A DNA stretch of 64,000 bases from Tepidisphaeraceae bacterium (GTDB lineage: Bacteria > Planctomycetota > Phycisphaerae > Tepidisphaerales > Tepidisphaeraceae), in assembly GCA_035998445.1 (NCBI GenBank), contig DASYHQ010000032.1, positions 62,001 to 126,000 of the forward strand, given 5' to 3'. Under the pieces are notes generated by a model, which worked only from the letters and a program-made list of their open reading frames with translations, was not told the DNA's origin and did no database searches. Numbering within the stretch: position 1 is the stretch's first letter; the number at the start of each line of letters is the position of its first letter. Of this stretch, positions 43,134-59,503 are shown in pieces. Made by a program: the position numbers and the translations under genes.

Positions 43134-44228
43134 TTAGCGTTCCACTAAAGTTGGCTTCAATTGAATCTGCGAGAAGAACGGCGTCGCACCAGGCAACGTC
43201 GGTTCGATCGCGTGAAACGCGGCCTGACGGCCGACCTCGTCGAACGGCATGGCGACCGCAGGCAGTGGCTCAGTGGTGCGGTCGGCCAGCGTGTTGTCGA
43301 TGCTGATGAACGCGATGCCCTCTGGCACGGCGTTACCGGATTCCTTGGCGGCGGCCATCGCACCGATCGCCTTCGAATCGCTCGCGCCAACGACGCCGTC
43401 GACCGCCACGCCGGCCATGAGCAACTGGCGCATCATTGCACGGCCGGCCTCGCTGTCGACGATGTGCGACCCCTCGATCGCCAGCGCCTTGTCGAACGCG
43501 ATGCCCGCCTCGGCCAATGCCCGCTTGTAACCTGAAAGGCGGGCGCCAAAGCCCCAGTATGCATCCACCGGCCCGTTCAGCAGCGCGACGCGCCGGCGAC
43601 CGTGGTCCAGCATGTACTTCGTCGCGAGATAGCCGGCGTGTTCCTGATCGATGAAGACACAATTGCCGTCGTCAACCGGTTCGTTGATCGACCATACCGT
43701 CCAGCCAAGCCTTCCCAGTTCGTTGCGCAGCGCCGGGCTGAACGACGGCTCGATCATGAGGGCCGGCCCGGCTTCGGTGGTATCCAGAAAGCGGCGCGTG
43801 TCGGTGTCAATTTCGCCGGCGTTGGCGCTGCGCAGCACGAGCGCTTGCCCAGCGGTGCCGAGCGCAGATTGGATGCCGCGCATCATGCGAAGCAGTACCT
43901 CGCGGGCATCGCCACCCAAGCTGGCGGTATGACTGGAGACGAAGACCGGCACTTGCGTCGCAGCCTGTCGAGCGACTTCGTTCAGGATGGGTCGCGGCCC
44001 GATTCGTCGTTCGGCCACAAACGTGCCTTTGCCCTGCTTCCGGTAGACATAGCCATCGCGAACGAGGTCCTGCAGCGAACGCACCAGTGTCGGGCGCGAC
44101 ACCCTGAATCGTTGCACGAGTTCCGCTTCCGATGGCACCACCGTGCCCGCAGCCCAGCGACCGTTCTCAATTTCTTCGATCAGGCTACGTTTCACCCGCT
44201 CGTATTTAGGCAGTTCCACTGTGGGCAT
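43134..44228 (-). CDS. GntR-LacI (AraR-like) transcriptional regulator
   Basis: 364 residues. An N-terminal GntR winged helix (YERVKRSLIEEIENGRWAAGTVVPSEAELVQRFRVSRPTLVRSLQDLVRDGYVYRKQGKGTFVAE) is joined to a LacI-type sugar-binding domain (ALMIEPSFSPALR, YLATKYMLDHGRRRVALLNG, GVVGASDSKAIGAMAAA, IAFISIDNTLADRTTEPLPAV). The same architecture occurs in the arabinose repressor AraR. It probably regulates the PEP-CTERM and symporter genes downstream and itself through the half-site array at 44239-44269. The inducer is likely a sugar. Confidence 0.9.
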   Translation of the reverse strand: MPTVELPKYERVKRSLIEEIENGRWAAGTVVPSEAELVQRFRVSRPTLVRSLQDLVRDGYVYRKQGKGTFVAERRIGPRPILNEVARQAATQVPVFVSSHTASLGGDAREVLLRMMRGIQSALGTAGQALVLRSANAGEIDTDTRRFLDTTEAGPALMIEPSFSPALRNELGRLGWTVWSINEPVDDGNCVFIDQEHAGYLATKYMLDHGRRRVALLNGPVDAYWGFGARLSGYKRALAEAGIAFDKALAIEGSHIVDSEAGRAMMRQLLMAGVAVDGVVGASDSKAIGAMAAAKESGNAVPEGIAFISIDNTLADRTTEPLPAVAMPFDEVGRQAAFHAIEPTLPGATPFFSQIQLKPTLVER

Positions 44229-44238
44229 TTTGAAACTT

Positions 44239-44276
44239 TACAAGTGCGTAGTTGTATTAGCAAGTACAATCTTGTG
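44239..44276. promoter_or_regulatory. Alternating TACAA/TTGTA operator array of the GntR-LacI regulator
   Basis: TACAA (44239-44243), TTGTA (44252-44256) and TACAA (44265-44269) alternate in orientation with exactly 8 bases between each, giving a 13-base period. A degenerate TTGTG (44272-44276) follows. AraR operators of Bacillus use the same TTGTA/TACAA half-sites, but with a shorter spacer. The array starts 11 bases upstream of the regulator start codon. Confidence 0.62.
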
Positions 44277-44381
44277 ATTCTAAATGTTTATCGAAGTGCC
44301 GTCATAGCATGCTTGTCTTAAGATTTAGCCGTTGAAGCCCAAAAAATGGTCGGTCTCGGCTAATCCTTGAGGTCGACACTC

Positions 44382-44403
44382 GGAAAAGATTAGGGAAAAG
44401 ATT
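44382..44403 (+). repeat. Tandem GGAAAAGATT repeat upstream of the pseudopilin gene
   Basis: GGAAAAGATT occurs at 44382-44391 and again at 44394-44403, 12 bases apart, and is immediately followed by a TTGACA that begins within the second copy. It could be an activator site. No acceptable -10 lies 16-18 bases after the TTGACA. Confidence 0.4.
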
Positions 44404-51233: not shown

Positions 51234-52259
51234 ATGTTGAACGCTTTTGGTGGACCTGAACTGGTGGGGACGTTGCTGCTGATCGGCGCGGCGATGCTGA
51301 TCTACGCGGTGGCGTGGTCGGCGATCGACCTGGTGACCGATGATGCGGTTTCGCCCGGCTGGCTCGCGGTCGGCAGTTCGCTACCGCTAGCGGCGGTGGC
51401 GTGGGCGGGGGCGCTGTTGGGGCAGGCGGACTTCGTAATGGCGGTGGTGCTCGGAACGTCGATCGCGGGGCTGGCGATCATTGTCGGCACGGTGCTCACG
51501 GGGCCTTCGGAACTGGAACTACCGCCGTCGTCGCGTGCGTGGCCGTTACTGCTGCCGGTGGTATTGCTCTTGTTGATGATGGGCTTCGGCGCCCGCATTG
51601 GCCTACAGGAGGCCGCGATGCTCGCGGTGCTGGGGGCGGCGGTGGGAGCCGTGTGGCGCGCAGGTGACGCGTCGCCTACGTTGTTGACCGATGCGGACGT
51701 CGTCCCCGTCACCACCGCCCGCAGGCGGCTGGATGTTCTCGTTGTACTGCAGGCACTGCTCACGCTGCTGCTGGCCGTGGTGGCGGGGTGGCTGGCGGTG
51801 CGCGGGGCGCTCGACCTGTCTGCCGCCAGACGCGGGCTATCGCCGGGCGTCGTGGGCATTACGCTGATCTCGGCGATGCTGATGCTCCCCAGCGTGGGGA
51901 AGGCGACGTTCCTGAGCCAGACAAACCGCGCGGGCATCGCGATCGGCGCGCAGGTGGGTGCGGTACTGATCGCGCTCACGTTCATTCTGCCGGTCGCCGT
52001 CGTCGTCTGGTACGTGCGAACGGTAGCGCTGACCGATGCGGGCGCTGTCGATCCCTTCGAGATGGACAGGGTCGTGGCCATGCCGTTTGCGATCGGTTTT
52101 TGGCGGGTCGAGACGACCGTTCTGCTGGCGCTCGCGCTCCCGTTGCTACCCGTGGCTGCGCGACGGTGGAAGCCGGGCCGCACGGAAGGGCTCGTGTTGA
52201 TCTGCGGGTACGTCTATTACCTTCTACTGATCACGCGCGCAAGCAATCGCTGGCATTAA
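51234..52259 (+). CDS. Degenerate cation/Ca2+ exchanger-like membrane protein
   Basis: 341 residues with about ten hydrophobic segments in two halves separated by a hydrophilic loop near residue 145. The segment WLAVGSSLPLAAVAWAGALLGQADFVMAVVLGTSIAG closely follows the alpha-repeat of CaCA antiporters (VALGTSAPE...GNVLGSNI), but the key SxPE acid is Leu and the GN pair is lost. The second repeat (VGITLISAMLMLPSVGKA) is weaker still. Transport by the usual mechanism is therefore doubtful. The ATG at 51234 starts the first helix. The family call is by my reading of the pattern only. Confidence 0.5.
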   Translation: MLNAFGGPELVGTLLLIGAAMLIYAVAWSAIDLVTDDAVSPGWLAVGSSLPLAAVAWAGALLGQADFVMAVVLGTSIAGLAIIVGTVLTGPSELELPPSSRAWPLLLPVVLLLLMMGFGARIGLQEAAMLAVLGAAVGAVWRAGDASPTLLTDADVVPVTTARRRLDVLVVLQALLTLLLAVVAGWLAVRGALDLSAARRGLSPGVVGITLISAMLMLPSVGKATFLSQTNRAGIAIGAQVGAVLIALTFILPVAVVVWYVRTVALTDAGAVDPFEMDRVVAMPFAIGFWRVETTVLLALALPLLPVAARRWKPGRTEGLVLICGYVYYLLLITRASNRWH

Positions 52260-52336
52260 ACCGGTGTGGTACATTGATCGTCCTCCGGAACGAATGGATC
52301 GTTCTTGGTTTATCAGATAATGCGGAAAGGCAGCAC

Positions 52337-52996
52337 ATGGCACGGGTCGCGTTGATCGTTTGGGGCGGATGGGACGGACACCAACCGAAGCAGGTCGCCG
52401 AGATTTTCGAGCGCGTCCTGAAGCAGGATGGCTTCACAGTCGAAATGTCGGACACGCTCGACGCGTTTAAGAACGTCGGCAGCATGAACGACCTTAGGCT
52501 GATCGTGCCGGTCTGGACGATGGGTAAGCTTGCCAACGAGCAGGGCGAGCCGGTCTTTAAGGCCGTGCGTGAAAACGGCGTGGGCATCGCCGGTTGCCAT
52601 GGTGGCATGTGTGACTCGTTCCGCGAGAACACCGAGTGGCAGTTCATGACCGGTGGCCAGTGGGTCAGCCACCCCGGCAACGACGGCACCAAGTACCGCG
52701 TGAAGGTGCTGAACACCGGCAACGAAATCACGCAGGGCATCGGGGACTTCGACGTCTCCAGCGAACAATACTACATGCACGTCGACCCGGCGGCGCGCGT
52801 GCTGGCGACCACGGAAATGCCCGTGGCGGACGGCCCGCACGTGCCGAACGGGAAGTTCGACATGCCGGTCGTCTGGACGAAGTACTACGGCAAGGGCAAG
52901 GTCTTCTACAACTCGCTAGGCCATCAAGCGAACATCGTCGAGGCCGAGCCCTGCCTCACCCTCATGCGGCGTGGCTTCAACTGGGCCGCGAAGTAG
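52337..52996 (+). CDS. ThuA-domain protein
   Basis: 219 residues covering a single ThuA domain, a class I glutamine-amidotransferase-like fold first named from trehalose utilisation. Markers are ALIVWGGWDGHQPKQVAEIF, VGIAGCHGGMCDSFRENTEWQFMTGGQWVSHPG, VLATTEMPVADGPH and VVWTKYYGKGKVFYNSLGHQ. The function is unproven; it often travels with Gfo/Idh enzymes. A GGAAAGG ribosome site precedes the ATG at 52337, and the longer frame upstream overlaps the exchanger-like gene and is not used. Confidence 0.88.
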   Translation: MARVALIVWGGWDGHQPKQVAEIFERVLKQDGFTVEMSDTLDAFKNVGSMNDLRLIVPVWTMGKLANEQGEPVFKAVRENGVGIAGCHGGMCDSFRENTEWQFMTGGQWVSHPGNDGTKYRVKVLNTGNEITQGIGDFDVSSEQYYMHVDPAARVLATTEMPVADGPHVPNGKFDMPVVWTKYYGKGKVFYNSLGHQANIVEAEPCLTLMRRGFNWAAK

Positions 52997-53022
52997 CGCG
53001 GCGGCTACTCGCGTGAGGCTAC

Positions 53023-53910
53023 ATGACCGATGCACCAGCACCAGCACGATCGCGCCGACCCTGGCGACGGGGACGAAAGATCGCGCTGGCGCTGTTGACC
53101 GTTTACGCCCTCACCATGTTGTTCGGATGCCCCGCCGATCGGTTGTTGCTCTATCCTCGGCCGTCGGCGGAGTCGGTCTTCGATGCCTCGCCGCGTATGG
53201 TTGATTTCAACGGCGGCACGCTTGAGGTTTTCGTTGCGCGCTCGCCGGGCACCACGCGCAGCGAACCCGTTGCGTTCATGCTGGAGTTCACCGGCAACGC
53301 CACGCGCGCCGAAGACATCGCCGGTTGGGTCGCCTCGCGCTGGGGCGAGCGACCTGTGGAAACGTGGGTGATGAACTACCCCGGCTATGGTCGCAGCACG
53401 GGCGACGCGCGCCTGGCAGCCCTGGGGCCGGCGGCGCTGGCGACGTATGACGAACTGGCCAAGCTGGCCGCGGGCCGACCGATCGTGCTGGCTGGCAACA
53501 GCATGGGCAGCGCGGTGGCGCTACACGTCGCCACCCAGCGCCCGGTCGCCGGCTTAATCTTGCAGAATCCACCTCCACTGCGGCAGATCGTCCTGCGCGA
53601 CCACGGCTGGTGGAACCTGTGGCTGCTCGCCGGCCCGGTCGCTCTGAGCATCCCCGCTAGCCTCGATTCCGTCGCCCAAGCTCGCCAGGTGACGGTCCCT
53701 GCGATCTTCATCATGTCCGATTCAGATGAACTCGTTCGCCCCGCGCTGCAGCGGAAGATCCTCGAGGCTTACGCCGGTCCTCGACGCGTGATCACACTGG
53801 TTGGCAAAGGTCACAACGATTCCTTGGACCGACCGATGGAACTGAGAGAATTTGGTGAAGCATTAGACTGGCTCCTGTCCCGATCAATCGCGCCCGAACA
53901 ACAAGAATAG
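53023..53910 (+). CDS. Membrane-anchored alpha/beta-hydrolase
   Basis: 295 residues. An Arg-rich N-terminus and one hydrophobic segment (IALALLTVYALTMLFG, about 22-37) anchor or export it. The fold shows VMNYPGYGRSTGD, the nucleophile elbow GNSMGS with Ser160, the acid in IMSDSDELV and the histidine in VGKGHNDS, so the triad is complete. It resembles the BEM46/YfhR-like group of unknown substrate. It is 27 bp downstream of the ThuA gene and may share its transcript. Confidence 0.85.
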   Translation: MTDAPAPARSRRPWRRGRKIALALLTVYALTMLFGCPADRLLLYPRPSAESVFDASPRMVDFNGGTLEVFVARSPGTTRSEPVAFMLEFTGNATRAEDIAGWVASRWGERPVETWVMNYPGYGRSTGDARLAALGPAALATYDELAKLAAGRPIVLAGNSMGSAVALHVATQRPVAGLILQNPPPLRQIVLRDHGWWNLWLLAGPVALSIPASLDSVAQARQVTVPAIFIMSDSDELVRPALQRKILEAYAGPRRVITLVGKGHNDSLDRPMELREFGEALDWLLSRSIAPEQQE

Positions 53911-53966
53911 CGCACATCCGTCAGCGGAGCGCGCGCCTTAGCGATCGATACTTCCACCCCGGAAAC

Positions 53967-54605
53967 ATGCCTCCCAAGATCATCATTTTCGATCTCGGCC
54001 GCGTCTTGATCCGCATTTGCGATAGCTGGCAACATGCCTGTGCGGTCGCAGGCATCTCAGCGCCCACGGGTGAAATGGATTCGACGCGCGATGCCGCCTT
54101 GCTGAACTTGGTGAAACTGAACGAGGTCGATGCTATCGATCATCAGCAGTTCTGCGATCGGGTCGCGCCGCTGTTGGACCTGACGCCGTCGCAGATCGCG
54201 CGACTGTCGGACGCATACTTGCTCGGCCCGTACCCTGGCGTGCGCGAGCTGCTCGCACAGTTGAGGTCCGCTGGCCACATGACCGCGTGCCTCAGCAACA
54301 CGAACACCAACCATTGGCGGCTGATGAACGACGTCGCGAATCCCAACGCGCTGCCTCTGGATCAACTCGACTACCGCTTCGCAAGCCAGCTGATGAGACT
54401 GCGGAAGCCCGACGACGCGATCTATGCGGCTGTCGAACAGGAAACGGGCTGCCGCGGCGATGAGATCGTGTTCTTCGACGACCTCCCCCACAACGTGGCG
54501 GCCGCCCAGCGGCGGGGCTGGCGAGCGTTTCAGATCGCGATCGATTCGGACCCCATCCAGCAGGTGCGAACGCACCTCCGAATAATCGGCCTGCTCGCCA
54601 CGTGA
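53967..54605 (+). CDS. HAD-superfamily phosphatase (YihX-like)
   Basis: 212 residues. Motif I is IIFDLGRVLIRI with nucleophile D9; the glycine at +2, instead of the usual acid, is common in the YihX-like group. The helical cap spans about 20-90. Motif II is ACLSNTNTNHW, motif III the lysine in LRKPDDAIY, and motif IV EIVFFDDLPHNVAAA. Such enzymes dephosphorylate sugar phosphates such as alpha-glucose-1-phosphate. The substrate is not evident from the neighbours. Confidence 0.87.
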   Translation: MPPKIIIFDLGRVLIRICDSWQHACAVAGISAPTGEMDSTRDAALLNLVKLNEVDAIDHQQFCDRVAPLLDLTPSQIARLSDAYLLGPYPGVRELLAQLRSAGHMTACLSNTNTNHWRLMNDVANPNALPLDQLDYRFASQLMRLRKPDDAIYAAVEQETGCRGDEIVFFDDLPHNVAAAQRRGWRAFQIAIDSDPIQQVRTHLRIIGLLAT

Positions 54606-54690: not shown

Positions 54691-55827
54691 TCAATAAACC
54701 ATCGCGAGCGCATCCGCGTTTTCGCGGACGATCGGGTGGTAGAGCGTGTCGCGTTCCACGGGCACCCGGCCGGCCTCGCGGATGAGGCGTTGGATGTCCG
54801 AAACGTGCAGTTCCTGGTGCGTCGTACCGCGGTCGCCTTCGCGTTTGGTGATGTCATACCAGACCACGGTTCCGTCGAGGTCGTCGCAGCCCCAGTCGAG
54901 CGCGATCTGCGACAGGCCGATGCCCTGCATGATCCAAAATGCCTTCACGTGCGGGATGTTGTTCAACATCAGCCGTGAGATGGCTAGCGTCTTCAGGTCC
55001 ATCAGCCCGGTCGGCCCGGCCAGGTGCCCTAATTCGCTTTGATCAGGGATAAAGCTCAGCGGCACCATGCAATTGAAAAAAGCAGGTGACGAAATTTGCG
55101 ACTCTGCCTGTAGTTCGCGCAACTTGATCAGATGCCCCACGCGCTCGGCCGGCGTCTCAACATGGCCATAGAGCATCGTGGCATTCGTGTAGATGCCAAG
55201 GCTGTGGGCAATGCGGTGCACCTCGAACCATTTGTCGGCCCGCACCTTGCCCTTGAAGACCTCATCGTGCACGCGATCGTCGAAGATCTCCGCGCCGCCG
55301 CCCGGCATGCTGCCGAGGCCGGCTTCGCGCAGGGCGGTCAGCACCTCGGCGACCGTCATGCGCGCGATGCGGGACAGGTGGATGATCTCGATGGCCGTGA
55401 ACGCCTTCACGTGCAGTTCCGGGCAGGCGGCGCGGATGCCGCGGAGCATGTCGGTGTAGTAATCGAACTTCAGCCAAGGGTGCAGCCCGCCGACGACATG
55501 AACTTCCGTCGCCCCGGCGTCGCGCGCCTTCACCGCGGTGGCGACGACCTGTTCGACGGGCATCTCGTACGCGCCCTCTTCCCCGCGTTTGCGGTAGAAG
55601 CTGCAGAACTTGCAGGAGAGCGCGCAGACGTTCGTGTAATTGATATGGCGGTTGCGGTTGTAGTACGCCTTATCGCCATGCAACCGCTCGCGCACCACGT
55701 TCGCCAGCCGGCCGATGCCATGAAGATCGCGTGACGCATAGAGCGCCAGCCCATCCTCCAGCGACAGCACTTCGCCAGCGAGGACCTTGTCGCGGATGGG
55801 GATGAGCAGGGGGTCGGCGACGTTCAT
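54691..55827 (-). CDS. mqnE: Aminodeoxyfutalosine synthase
   Basis: 378 residues, radical-SAM enzyme of the futalosine route to menaquinone; it joins a chorismate-derived enol ether to the adenosyl radical. The cluster motif is CALSCKFC, with C68, C72 and C75. Family segments are AYYNRNRHINYTNVC, EVHVVGGLHPWLKFDYYTDMLRGI, LGSMPGGGAEIFDD, NATMLYGHVETPAERVGHL and FWIMQGIGLSQIALDWGCDDLDGTV. The last three distinguish MqnE from MqnC and the F420 enzymes. It lies 91 bp downstream of the prenyltransferase on the same strand. Confidence 0.95.
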   Translation of the reverse strand: MNVADPLLIPIRDKVLAGEVLSLEDGLALYASRDLHGIGRLANVVRERLHGDKAYYNRNRHINYTNVCALSCKFCSFYRKRGEEGAYEMPVEQVVATAVKARDAGATEVHVVGGLHPWLKFDYYTDMLRGIRAACPELHVKAFTAIEIIHLSRIARMTVAEVLTALREAGLGSMPGGGAEIFDDRVHDEVFKGKVRADKWFEVHRIAHSLGIYTNATMLYGHVETPAERVGHLIKLRELQAESQISSPAFFNCMVPLSFIPDQSELGHLAGPTGLMDLKTLAISRLMLNNIPHVKAFWIMQGIGLSQIALDWGCDDLDGTVVWYDITKREGDRGTTHQELHVSDIQRLIREAGRVPVERDTLYHPIVRENADALAMVY

Positions 55828-55917
55828 GCTGCTACAAGTATAGGGGCTGGGGCCATCTCCTTCGAGGAGCGGACAGGATTTTGAAAGCTCAGAATCAGGA
55901 AAGATAAGCGCTGCGAG

Positions 55918-56847
55918 CTACGGATTGGCTACGAAGACGTCGATTATTCCGAGTACGCCCACCAGCACGCTAATGACACCGTTAACGGTGAAGAAGGCCA
56001 CGTTTAGCTTTGACAGATCTCCGCCGCGGACCAGCAGGTGTTCGAGCGTTAGCAACGCGATCGCGATCGAGACGCCCACTGCAAATACCACGCCGAACTC
56101 GGGCGTCGTCCACGCGAGCATGACGAACATCACCGCCGACACCACATGCGTCAGCCGGGCGACCCAAAGGGCGCCACTAATGCCCAGCTTAGACGGCACC
56201 GAATGCAGGCCTTGGGCCACGTCGACCGCGTAGTCCTGGCAGGCGTAGATGATGTCGAAACCGGCCGTCCAAGCCAACACCGCAGCGGCCATCCAGAGCG
56301 GTGGGGCGTCGATCGTTCCCTTTACCGCCAGCCAGGCGCACACGGGGGCCAGGGCCAGCGCAACACCGAGGTAATAGTGGCACAGGCGCGTGACGCGCTT
56401 CATGAACGGGTAGCCGCAGAGGTAGATCAGCACCGGCACCGACAGCAGCATTGGCCACGCGTTGCCGTACAGCCACCAGAAGCCGCCCGTCGCCATCACG
56501 AACGCCGCCGAGCTTGCCAGCAGCGTTGCGCGGACGAAGTGGCTCGACAGTGCGCCATTCGGAATGGCACGATTAGCTGTTCGCGGGTTGAGCGCGTCCA
56601 GTTTCGCGTCAAACAACCGGTTGGCCGCCATGGCGACCGTTCGGGCAAAGATCATGCAAAGGATGACCAGCAGCACGTGCCCCAGCCCCAGCCCATCGGG
56701 CGTGCGGTGGGCGGCCAGCACCGTGGCCAGCAGGGCGAAGGGCATCGCGAAGATCGAGTGCGACAGCTTGATGTCGCGCGCGAAGGTCGCCAGTCGATCA
56801 ACGAAGGAGAGCGGGGAAGCGGCAAGGGTCGAATTATCGATGCGCAC
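55918..56847 (-). CDS. UbiA-family prenyltransferase (MqnP-like)
   Basis: 309 residues with eight or nine membrane helices. The first Asp-rich motif is ANRLFDAKLDALNPRTANR, the NRxxDxxxDxxNPRT form typical of the menaquinone-route enzymes found with futalosine genes. The second is WTAGFDIIYACQDYAVDVAQG. It attaches the polyprenyl tail to a naphthoate ring. Its position beside mqnE and near menG supports this role. The start is uncertain: GTG 56847 is chosen because the frame above it contains a palindrome and starts with TTG. It diverges from a small gene at 56892. Confidence 0.87.
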   Translation of the reverse strand: MRIDNSTLAASPLSFVDRLATFARDIKLSHSIFAMPFALLATVLAAHRTPDGLGLGHVLLVILCMIFARTVAMAANRLFDAKLDALNPRTANRAIPNGALSSHFVRATLLASSAAFVMATGGFWWLYGNAWPMLLSVPVLIYLCGYPFMKRVTRLCHYYLGVALALAPVCAWLAVKGTIDAPPLWMAAAVLAWTAGFDIIYACQDYAVDVAQGLHSVPSKLGISGALWVARLTHVVSAVMFVMLAWTTPEFGVVFAVGVSIAIALLTLEHLLVRGGDLSKLNVAFFTVNGVISVLVGVLGIIDVFVANP

Positions 56848-56865
56848 GACGTATTCTAGCGTGCC

Positions 56866-56883
56866 CGCGGGAAAGTTCCCGCG
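56866..56883. promoter_or_regulatory. Perfect palindrome upstream of the UbiA-like gene
   Basis: CGCGGGAA-AG-TTCCCGCG is an exact 8-base inverted repeat with a 2-base centre. It lies between the divergent starts of the prenyltransferase (56847) and a 64-residue protein (56892). It is a candidate operator. It also bears on the start choice, since a TTG start at 56889 would make it coding. Confidence 0.5.
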
Positions 56884-56891
56884 TTTCAATT

Positions 56892-57086
56892 ATGATCAGA
56901 ATTCGCGAAATAGACGACCGCGACTTGCGCGAGCGCATCCGCCAGGCGCTAGCCGACCGCCGCGGCATGTCGGCGGCGGCCATTCCTGACTGGTACGAGC
57001 TGGACGACCACGACTTCGTCGACCTCCTGAACGACCTGAAGGAAGCGGAGAACCCGACGCGACCGGACGACGACTATCGGGATTGA
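56892..57086 (+). CDS. Small acidic conserved-looking protein
   Basis: 64 residues, highly charged: IRIREIDDRDLRERIRQAL, then WYELDDHDFVDLLNDLKEAE and a DDDYRD tail. It is predicted helical, with no cysteines and no signal. I do not recognise a family. It looks real because composition and third-position GC fit coding sequence and it fills the gap between two minus-strand genes. It overlaps the convergent aminotransferase gene by 13 bases. Confidence 0.55.
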   Translation: MIRIREIDDRDLRERIRQALADRRGMSAAAIPDWYELDDHDFVDLLNDLKEAENPTRPDDDYRD

Positions 57087-57997
57087 GCGGCAGCGTTCCG
57101 GGCTGACGCTCCCAGCTCGTACCCCGTCAGTTGTACTGTTGCGACCATCGTTTCCGATCGCACGCGCTCCTGATAGGCCCGGTGCAGTCGCAGCGTCACG
57201 TTACCGCAACGCCCTAGCCCGACCGGCTGCTGGTCCCACTGAGATACCCACGATAGTTCCCGCGTGGTGCTGGTGATGAACAGCTCGTCGGCTCGCAAGG
57301 CCTCAGTGACGGTCAACGGCTGTTCCTGCACCTCGATGTCCAACGACGCAGCGATCTGCAGCAGCACGTGCCGCGTGATGCCCGGCAACACCTTCGGGCC
57401 GACCGGGTGCGTGACGAGCGCGCCACCGATGACCGCGAACAGATTGCTGGCGCTGCACTCGGTGACGACGTCGTCCTCGATGAATGCCGCTTCATCAAAC
57501 CCGGCCGCGGCGGCCTTATTCTTGGCCAGCACGTTGGGCAATAGGGCGATCGACTTGATCCAACAGCGCTTCCAGCGTTCGTCGGCGGCGCTCATGAGCT
57601 TCACGCCGGCCGCCGTGCCAAGCTCGGGCACCGAGGGCAGGGTGCGGGTGTAGAACAGCAGCGTGGGCTGAATGTGGGCGGGGTAAAGATGGTTCCGCGG
57701 CGCCACGCCGCGCGTCAGTTGCATGTAGACCATGCCATCCCGCACACCGGTTTGCGGCAGGAAGGTTAGGACATGCTCGGCCAGTTCACCGACCGTCATC
57801 GGCAGCTCGATCTCGATGCCCGCGGCGCTCTTCTGCAGGCGTTGGAGGTGCTCGGTCATCGTGAAGGGCTGGCCGTCATATAGCCGGACCACTTCGTACA
57901 CCCCATCCGCGAACTGGAAGCCGCGATCCTCGACGCTGAGCTTCGCGTCGGCCATCGGGGTGACGTTGCCGTTGATCCAGATGATTTCCTGATTCAT
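57074..57997 (-). CDS. Class IV aminotransferase (D-amino-acid/branched-chain type)
   Basis: 307 residues, fold-type IV PLP enzyme. Visible are WINGNVTPMADAKLSVEDRGFQFADGVYEVVRLYDG, RGVAPRNHLYP, the PLP lysine K148 in RCWIKSIALLPNVLAKNKA, the glutamate in EDDVVTECSASNLFAV, and LPGITRHVLL. The LPNVLAK and DGVYE patterns favour D-alanine-type transaminase over branched-chain. That enzyme interconverts D-amino acids and 2-oxo acids for cell-wall precursors. The ATG at 57997 begins the domain; a 37-residue extension overlapping menG is rejected. Confidence 0.85.
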   Translation of the reverse strand: MNQEIIWINGNVTPMADAKLSVEDRGFQFADGVYEVVRLYDGQPFTMTEHLQRLQKSAAGIEIELPMTVGELAEHVLTFLPQTGVRDGMVYMQLTRGVAPRNHLYPAHIQPTLLFYTRTLPSVPELGTAAGVKLMSAADERWKRCWIKSIALLPNVLAKNKAAAAGFDEAAFIEDDVVTECSASNLFAVIGGALVTHPVGPKVLPGITRHVLLQIAASLDIEVQEQPLTVTEALRADELFITSTTRELSWVSQWDQQPVGLGRCGNVTLRLHRAYQERVRSETMVATVQLTGYELGASARNAAAQSR

Positions 57998-58092
57998 GTT
58001 CTTGGGCTCCAGTGATCGTGCCAGTGTAGCGAGCCTGCCGCCAGTTCTGAAAATCGCGATTGGCGGCCGCTCCCCTATAATCGGCCAATTCG

Positions 58093-58908
58093 ATGGCCAA
58101 CCCTTCACCCGCCTGGGACGACAACCTGCTGCAGAACCCCCACACCGTCGCCGACAAGCGCCGGCGGGTGCAGCAGATGTTCGCCGCGATCGCGCCGAAA
58201 TACGACTTCAACAACCGCCTGCACTCGTTCGGCCGCGATCAGGCGTGGCGACGGAAGGCGGTGGAACTAGCGGGCGTTAAGCTTGGAGATCGTGTTGTTG
58301 ACATCGCATGTGGCACTGGCGATCTAACCTTGGCATTCTTCAATGCCTTGACATGTAGAGACCCGTGGGGCGACGTGCTACCAAAGCGAGAAGAGCTGAT
58401 TGGCATCGATTTCACGTACGAAATGCTTCCCGTAGCAGTAGGAAAGTCATCTCCCGAGGTGAAGCGTGAATTCGAAGTAGAGCGGCTAAGATCTGTCGCT
58501 CAGTACATCAACGGCGACGCCCAAGCCCTCCCGCTGCCGGATGCCTCCGCCGACGTCGTCTCCATCGCCTTCGGCATCCGTAACGTGCAGGACGTAAACG
58601 CGGCGTTGCGCGAATTTCATCGCGTACTGCGCCCGGGCGGGCGGGTGATCATCCTGGAATTCTCGCGACCGCGGAATCGGGTGATTCGGTTCTTTAACGA
58701 CCTGTACTGCGCCAGGATCATGCCCCACACCGCGACGTGGATCAGTGGCGACAAGAGCGGGGCGTACAAGTACCTGCCGATGTCGGTCCAGTCGTTCATC
58801 GATCGCGACGAAATGGTCGCGAAGATCCGCGACGTCGGCTTTACGCAGGTCGAACAGTTCCCGATGACCTTCGGCGTCTGCGTCTGCTACCGGGGCGTGA
58901 AGACGTAG
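58093..58908 (+). CDS. menG: Demethylmenaquinone methyltransferase (MenG/UbiE)
   Basis: 271 residues, class I SAM-dependent methyltransferase performing the last step of menaquinone synthesis. Motifs are VQQMFAAIAPKYDFNNRLHSFGRDQAWRRKAV, the SAM loop VVDIACGTGDLTLAF, IGIDFTYEMLPVA, LPLPDASADVVSIAFGIRNVQD, HRVLRPGGRVIILEFSRP and YKYLPMSVQSF. Bases 58261-58500 have about 52% GC against 65-70% in the flanking lines, and carry two short extra segments (CRDPWGDVLPKREE and GKSSPEVKREFEVERL). The block stays in frame and includes the SAM loop, so the gene looks functional but mosaic. Confidence 0.94.
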   Translation: MANPSPAWDDNLLQNPHTVADKRRRVQQMFAAIAPKYDFNNRLHSFGRDQAWRRKAVELAGVKLGDRVVDIACGTGDLTLAFFNALTCRDPWGDVLPKREELIGIDFTYEMLPVAVGKSSPEVKREFEVERLRSVAQYINGDAQALPLPDASADVVSIAFGIRNVQDVNAALREFHRVLRPGGRVIILEFSRPRNRVIRFFNDLYCARIMPHTATWISGDKSGAYKYLPMSVQSFIDRDEMVAKIRDVGFTQVEQFPMTFGVCVCYRGVKT

Positions 58909-58945
58909 GTCTCGTTGCCGAGCTTTGAAAAGTCGAACCGCACGA

Positions 58946-59503
58946 TCAGTTGCCGGAGTCGAACTTGATCACGCCGCGCTGGCGCTTTACGGCGATCACG
59001 CGGTCCTTGAGCGAATCGAAGATCGGGCGCGCGTTGGGCAGCCCTTTGATCTCCAGTCGCGGCGTCGACTTGTCGTCCGACACCACCACGATGTTCCCCA
59101 CATTCAGCATGCGGTCGGCAAGCGTCTGGTAGTAGCTGATGTCGTCCACGTGCCACAGTTCCAGCGTGTCGACGTGCTTGTTAATAATGCCATGCTCGTA
59201 GTCGATGCGGTAGCTGGTGATGCGATACCGCTGGGTACGCGTGAAGAGCAACGGCACAAAAGGCAGCGCCAAGCCCAGCACGATGCAAGTGATCGTTACC
59301 AACGCGCCGGGAAACTGGCCGTTCAAGATCCAGAGCAGCACCGGCGTCAACAGCAACGCCAGCCCGACGACCGCCATCGCGATGGCGATGCCCACCTCGC
59401 CGCGCAGCACGGGCCGGCCATCGAAGTAGACGACCTCGTGATCGTTCGGGGCGGTATAGGCGCCGGGACCAGCAGCAGGGGTGGACGGGTTGGCTTGCGT
59501 CAT
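58946..59503 (-). CDS. Bacterial PH-domain (DUF304/bPH2) membrane protein
   Basis: 185 residues. A Pro/Ala-rich N-terminus and GRPVLRGEVG precede two membrane segments (GIAIAMAVVGLALLLTPVLLWIL and VTITCIVLGLALPFVPLLF). The C-terminal half is a bPH2-type domain: QRYRITSYRIDYEHGIINKHVDTLELWHVDDISYYQTL, then VGNIVVVSDDKSTPRLEIKGLPNARPIFDSLKDRV. The family is membrane-associated and of unclear function. The ATG at 59503 is preferred to a frame extension. It is convergent with menG. Confidence 0.85.
   Translation of the reverse strand: MTQANPSTPAAGPGAYTAPNDHEVVYFDGRPVLRGEVGIAIAMAVVGLALLLTPVLLWILNGQFPGALVTITCIVLGLALPFVPLLFTRTQRYRITSYRIDYEHGIINKHVDTLELWHVDDISYYQTLADRMLNVGNIVVVSDDKSTPRLEIKGLPNARPIFDSLKDRVIAVKRQRGVIKFDSGN

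Follow-up and report, generated by a model that had tools for sequence, protein, structure and literature searches.

In the 64,000-nucleotide stretch of DNA that we have analysed (the window), a menG gene carries an abrupt internal block in which synonymous codon choice turns away from GC, and the same segment of the gene dips in several relatives that, like it, have two variable loops there. We give an even chance to the reading that the site is prone to indels, and that substitution is faster there and GC bias is lost locally.

The menG gene and its product

The features under discussion are these.

58093..58908, + strand: menG/ubiE-type demethylmenaquinone methyltransferase gene, 271 aa (NF001244, TIGR01934, PDB 4obw, predicted model)
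58264..58500, + strand: low-GC3 block, codons 58-136 (segment scan; GC3s 0.47 against 0.87 outside)
58300..58326, + strand: SAM motif I, DIACGTGDL, residues 70-78 (conserved columns D70, G74, T75)
58351..58386, + strand: variable loop 1, residues about 87-98 (alignment gap), between the motif I helix and strand beta2
58456..58488, + strand: variable loop 2, residues about 122-132 (alignment gap), before strand beta3 (QYINGDA)

The product scores 222.2 bits with NCBIfam NF001244 (cut-off 216), which places it in the MenG/UbiE family, and 219.8 with TIGR01934 (cut-off 158.35), and it matches PDB 4obw, a COQ5-type methylase, with an E value of 5e-24. Residues D70, G74, T75 and D106 are invariant across 46 MenG sequences. 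SAM motif I is present, and the predicted structure, with a pLDDT of 92.9, is built of strands and helices as in an alpha/beta methyltransferase and indicates the class I methyltransferase fold. Loop 1 is modelled as a small hairpin, with strands at 88-90 and 93-95, whereas the model of loop 2 has a disordered turn (pLDDT below 50 at 120-123) followed by a helix; from the topology of the fold, both loops would be distant from the SAM site. The relatives of the gene are in the Phycisphaerae, and the host is a planctomycete. Upstream, at 54691-58108, there are a radical-SAM gene resembling MqnE/MqnC of the futalosine pathway, a UbiA-like prenyltransferase gene and an aminotransferase-like gene, all named by eye.

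The low-GC3 block

An unconstrained segment scan of menG gives codons 58-136 as its best segment with a log-likelihood ratio of 22.7, and the maximum for 60 shuffled sets of the same codons is 8.0. This bears out the initial annotation, which had described a sharp block of about 52% GC at 58261-58500: these codons (57-136) have a GC content of 0.517 and GC3 of 0.487, against 0.667 and 0.911 for the part of the gene upstream and 0.625 and 0.867 downstream. It had also stated that the reading frame is intact and that the block includes the SAM loop and two extra segments, as indeed it does (residues 70-78, about 87-98 and about 122-132), and the shift in codon choice that it reported is seen in the GC3s values listed above. 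GC1, GC2 and GC3 are 0.65, 0.42 and 0.48 in the block and 0.61, 0.42 and 0.88 outside it; as neither GC1 nor GC2 is lowered, the drop in GC is synonymous. In motif I the amino acids are conserved and spelled in low-GC3 codons, GC3 being 0.47 for the motif I segment and 0.56 for the beta2 segment, both of which hold conserved codons. The edges of the block are abrupt and fall within conserved motifs. We looked for repeats inside the block and found none of note.

We scanned about 1450 genes of the same genome (2.33 Mb of a draft in 64 contigs, with genes from our own caller), and few of them have so strong a clean dip in their interior as menG. When genes are ranked by score for dips enclosed by GC-rich flanks, menG comes sixth, and of the five genes above it only alaS was judged to be conserved with a sound start; the other four, judged by eye from their translations, are two open reading frames apparently started too early, one giant repeat-like protein and one unidentified short open reading frame. 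A GC content of 51.7% or less is found in 40 of 20,814 overlapping intragenic 240-bp segments of the same 2.33 Mb. The lowest-GC stretch of the window is at 44161-44400 (0.43); it overlaps a regulator-like gene at its start, together with the intergenic DNA that precedes a prepilin-like gene, and looks like ordinary promoter DNA.

Recurrence at one site in menG

The block had been thought special to the lineage of the window, and this is not so. When the gene (L070) is compared with about 79 relatives, the five strongest dips all lie on one segment, as follows (codons, by segment scan).

L005: 63-137 (GC3 0.33 against 0.88)
L070: 58-136
L006: 66-141
L079: 62-151
L007: 81-140

Both loops are present in all five. 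A tree built from the flanks requires at least four changes to account for the dip and eleven to account for the loops. The strongest dip in a gene with short loops or none covers 15 codons near loop 2 (L096), and there is none comparable to the five. Around and between the loops the conserved codons are also affected: their GC3 is down by about 0.2-0.67 in L070, L079, L005 and L006, and the depression is gone about 30 codons upstream and 10-20 codons downstream. In L071, L080 and L074 the loops are present yet their conserved neighbours dip little, so the link between dip and loop is not one to one, and across all menG genes insert length is weakly associated with the dip (best p 0.01, uncorrected); phylogenetically independent pairs are few. 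The initial annotation had held that a dip present in all close relatives would speak against replacement; it is present in several loop-bearing relatives but not in all relatives. A GC3 rise of similar size at this site is absent from every menG gene compared.

The loops of L007 and L086 both contain in-frame heptamer-like repeats, with units ATGCAAA and ATCAACN in L086 and of CAGAATT type in L007, and these resemble short tandem heptamers of intergenic DNA. A literature search on in-frame insertion of heptamer repeats yielded nothing usable.

Divergence beside the loops

Rates were compared in pairs selected for being close, with L071 in two of them and third positions partly saturated. In four of five loop-bearing pairs identity is lower in the block than in the flanks, by 0.14-0.29 for amino acids and by 0.11-0.26 for third positions.

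L005/L006: amino acids 0.84 to 0.55, third positions 0.65 to 0.39
L073/L078: amino acids 0.82 to 0.68, third positions 0.66 to 0.49
L071/L079: amino acids 0.82 to 0.55, third positions 0.53 to 0.29
L071/L074: amino acids 0.79 to 0.62, third positions 0.55 to 0.44

The fifth pair, L082/L084, has no acceleration in the block. Identity drops in the block also for the mixed pair L076/L083, in which one member has a long loop, and in five pairs with short loops or none the amino acids stay level (-0.01 to +0.06) and third positions change by -0.07 to +0.06. Substitution is thus raised at conserved sites beside indels in most loop-bearing pairs and is not raised where indels are lacking, a result that imports would give likewise. 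There is no transversion excess in the block, transitions and transversions being in similar proportions in block and flanks at distances near saturation.

Other genes of the order

The alaS genes of the same order have long, dissimilar and fast-evolving inserts, all at a single site that has the RTLDRGI helix on one side and FKLHDTYGFPID on the other. The bearers are about nine genomes (L214/L230, L220, L223, L224 and L226-L229), each with a GC3 dip; the alaS gene of the window's own genome (L214/L230) lies outside the window, on contig C32 at 51376-54378. In each of the seven bearers that were measured by motif, GC3 of the insert is lower by 0.22-0.38 than that of the remaining gene. In the insert flanks the mean drop is 0.13, and in genes lacking an insert it is 0.01 (p 0.0009, kinship ignored). 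The alaS distance profile agrees, with L226 and L229 misfiled in it (their inserts align elsewhere). The inserts may be one fast-evolving domain, several of them sharing by eye a helix-strand-strand-helix pattern.

In leuS the effect is marginal (p 0.11 and 0.048) and the generality of the association of dips with inserts is therefore not established; the leuS dip of the window's genome is not at a length-variable site. Nearly all genomes of the order have a leuS gene (L251-L274) that is split at profile position 142/143 by some 70 additional residues, and in the genome of the window this shared insert is without a marked dip in GC3. A dnaE-like gene of the same genome, also outside the window (contig C18, 516580-516735), has a low-GC3 insert encoding HGRDAHAT, which looks like a repeat-derived peptide.

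A wider reading, which we offer tentatively and at somewhat less than an even chance, is that housekeeping genes of this order have fixed sites of fast loop or domain turnover, each with a halo of scrambled synonymous codons due to recurrent local mutagenesis bound to the site or to a recombination cold spot, in the interior of essential genes.

A local process or import

For menG itself a local process would run as follows. The two loops would have been gained, lost and rewritten repeatedly within the planctomycete order, and the DNA around them, including conserved codons about 30 upstream and 10-20 downstream, would substitute faster and shed its GC-rich synonymous bias towards flat codon usage, while selection would retain the conserved amino acids. 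The process might be error-prone repair or replication drawn to the indel-prone site, or it might be a local loss of homologous recombination, and hence of GC-biased gene conversion, beside heterologous loops. The cause of the dip may well be local, with either of these two options at work.

Much of what is observed would be expected from import by recombination and equally from a mutational or recombinational process that acts locally. The initial annotation took the block to be a replacement from a lower-GC donor, and the form of this that we consider is recurrent intragenic replacement, in which homologous recombination anchored in the flanking conserved motifs swaps the loop segment between species, the donor here being a lower-GC relative not yet sampled. 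We think it less likely than the local process but take it seriously, because sampling of the order is sparse and so short a block cannot give a decisive tree. The foreign composition and the extra divergence that it calls for are both there. The abrupt edges in conserved motifs are as expected, the conserved block columns are over-diverged relative to the flank prediction in L070, L079, L005 and L006 (with a mean residual of -0.042 for the window's gene), and L005 and L006, 84% identical in their flanks, are in the block no closer to each other than to other families. However, no donor was found among 26 genomes of this thinly sampled order or 67 loci from genome contigs, and the best matches of the block are ordinary members of the family (L071 at 63% and L075 at 59%). 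Flanks and block were compared by phylogeny, as the initial annotation had proposed, and the AU test does not reject for the block the clade seen in the flank tree (p 0.84, a weak test on 58 columns). Strong changes at the site are only downward in GC3, with GC1 and GC2 unaltered, the dip is recurrent, and the fixed-site pattern in alaS would demand many separate imports.

With regard to codon usage, which the initial annotation had also proposed to compare, the block does differ from the host but is flatter than the codons of lower-GC kin. Four-fold sites in the dips are near flat (A.21, C.29, G.26, T.25), and over the dips in general a flat model outperforms host usage and, for the most part, the usage of lower-GC kin. 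The window's block has a score of -95.2 with the flat model, of -137.0 with host usage, and of -102 to -112 with the three tables from lower-GC kin. For a few alaS dips a kin codon table fits as well as the flat model or better. The codons of the block speak against a donor like the lower-GC kin tested, not against all donors. We prefer the local process because there are fixed sites in two genes, GC3 is only ever lowered, GC1 and GC2 are spared, the codons are flat and no donor was found in this thinly sampled order.

Relaxed selection alone, with codons of unconstrained loops drifting to neutral composition, is improbable. The loops themselves are variable and low in GC3, but the conserved codons of motif I and beta2 dip as well, and GC3 in the dip (0.47, and 0.33 in L005) falls below the GC content of 0.60 of intergenic DNA in the window's genome. 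As conserved codons outside the loops are depressed in GC3, relaxed selection is at most part of the cause. More improbable still is a selected cluster of rare codons whose effect would be to slow translation near the loops and so help the protein to fold co-translationally: position-specific conservation of such clusters is reported to be widespread (PMC5438181), and mean relative adaptiveness is 0.55 in the block against 0.85 outside, but usage is flat with the rarest codons not favoured, most relatives have the same fold without the dip, and its extent varies between genes.

An RNA element is set aside, with no Rfam match in 57800-59200 and folding of the block no better than that of shuffled sequences (z +0.79), and so is templated mutagenesis from a copy elsewhere in the genome, the sole match being a partial one of 44 bp to menG bases outside the block.

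Comparison with known systems

An intragenic dip in GC is usually read as horizontal transfer. Several lineages have this dip at one and the same site, and in alaS dips accompany the inserts, so that transfer would be over-called from composition alone. Should the local process be real, these genes offer a natural test of how indels, or the loss of recombination next to them, shape bacterial GC content over 100-200 bp.

McDonald et al. (2011) found that substitutions cluster over hundreds of bases around indels in bacteria and eukaryotes, and an error-prone polymerase signature, an excess of transversions, is reported around E. coli indels (PMC3114760). The faster substitution in menG is alike, and the repeat-bearing loops of L007 and L086 would fit the repeat-driven version of that effect. 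In contrast to it, our case is one of deep divergence, in which GC3 and codon bias are lost locally where housekeeping genes have a fixed site of this kind, and the menG block lacks the transversion excess.

Lassalle et al. (2015) showed that bacterial GC content tracks recombination, through GC-biased gene conversion (PMC4450053), and a non-recombining stretch beside heterologous loops should likewise lose GC. Their comparison is of genes and intergenes, whereas ours is of the composition of 200-bp stretches inside a gene. Position-specific rare-codon clusters (PMC5438181) resemble the menG case in having synonymous rare codons at a homologous position, but differ in that menG usage is flat, without enrichment of the rarest codons, and tied to the presence of loops. 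The likeness to mosaic genes formed by intragenic homologous recombination is in the compositional block with its edges in conserved motifs; the menG block differs in that neither a donor nor a supported phylogenetic conflict was found among the genomes compared, and in recurring at one site.
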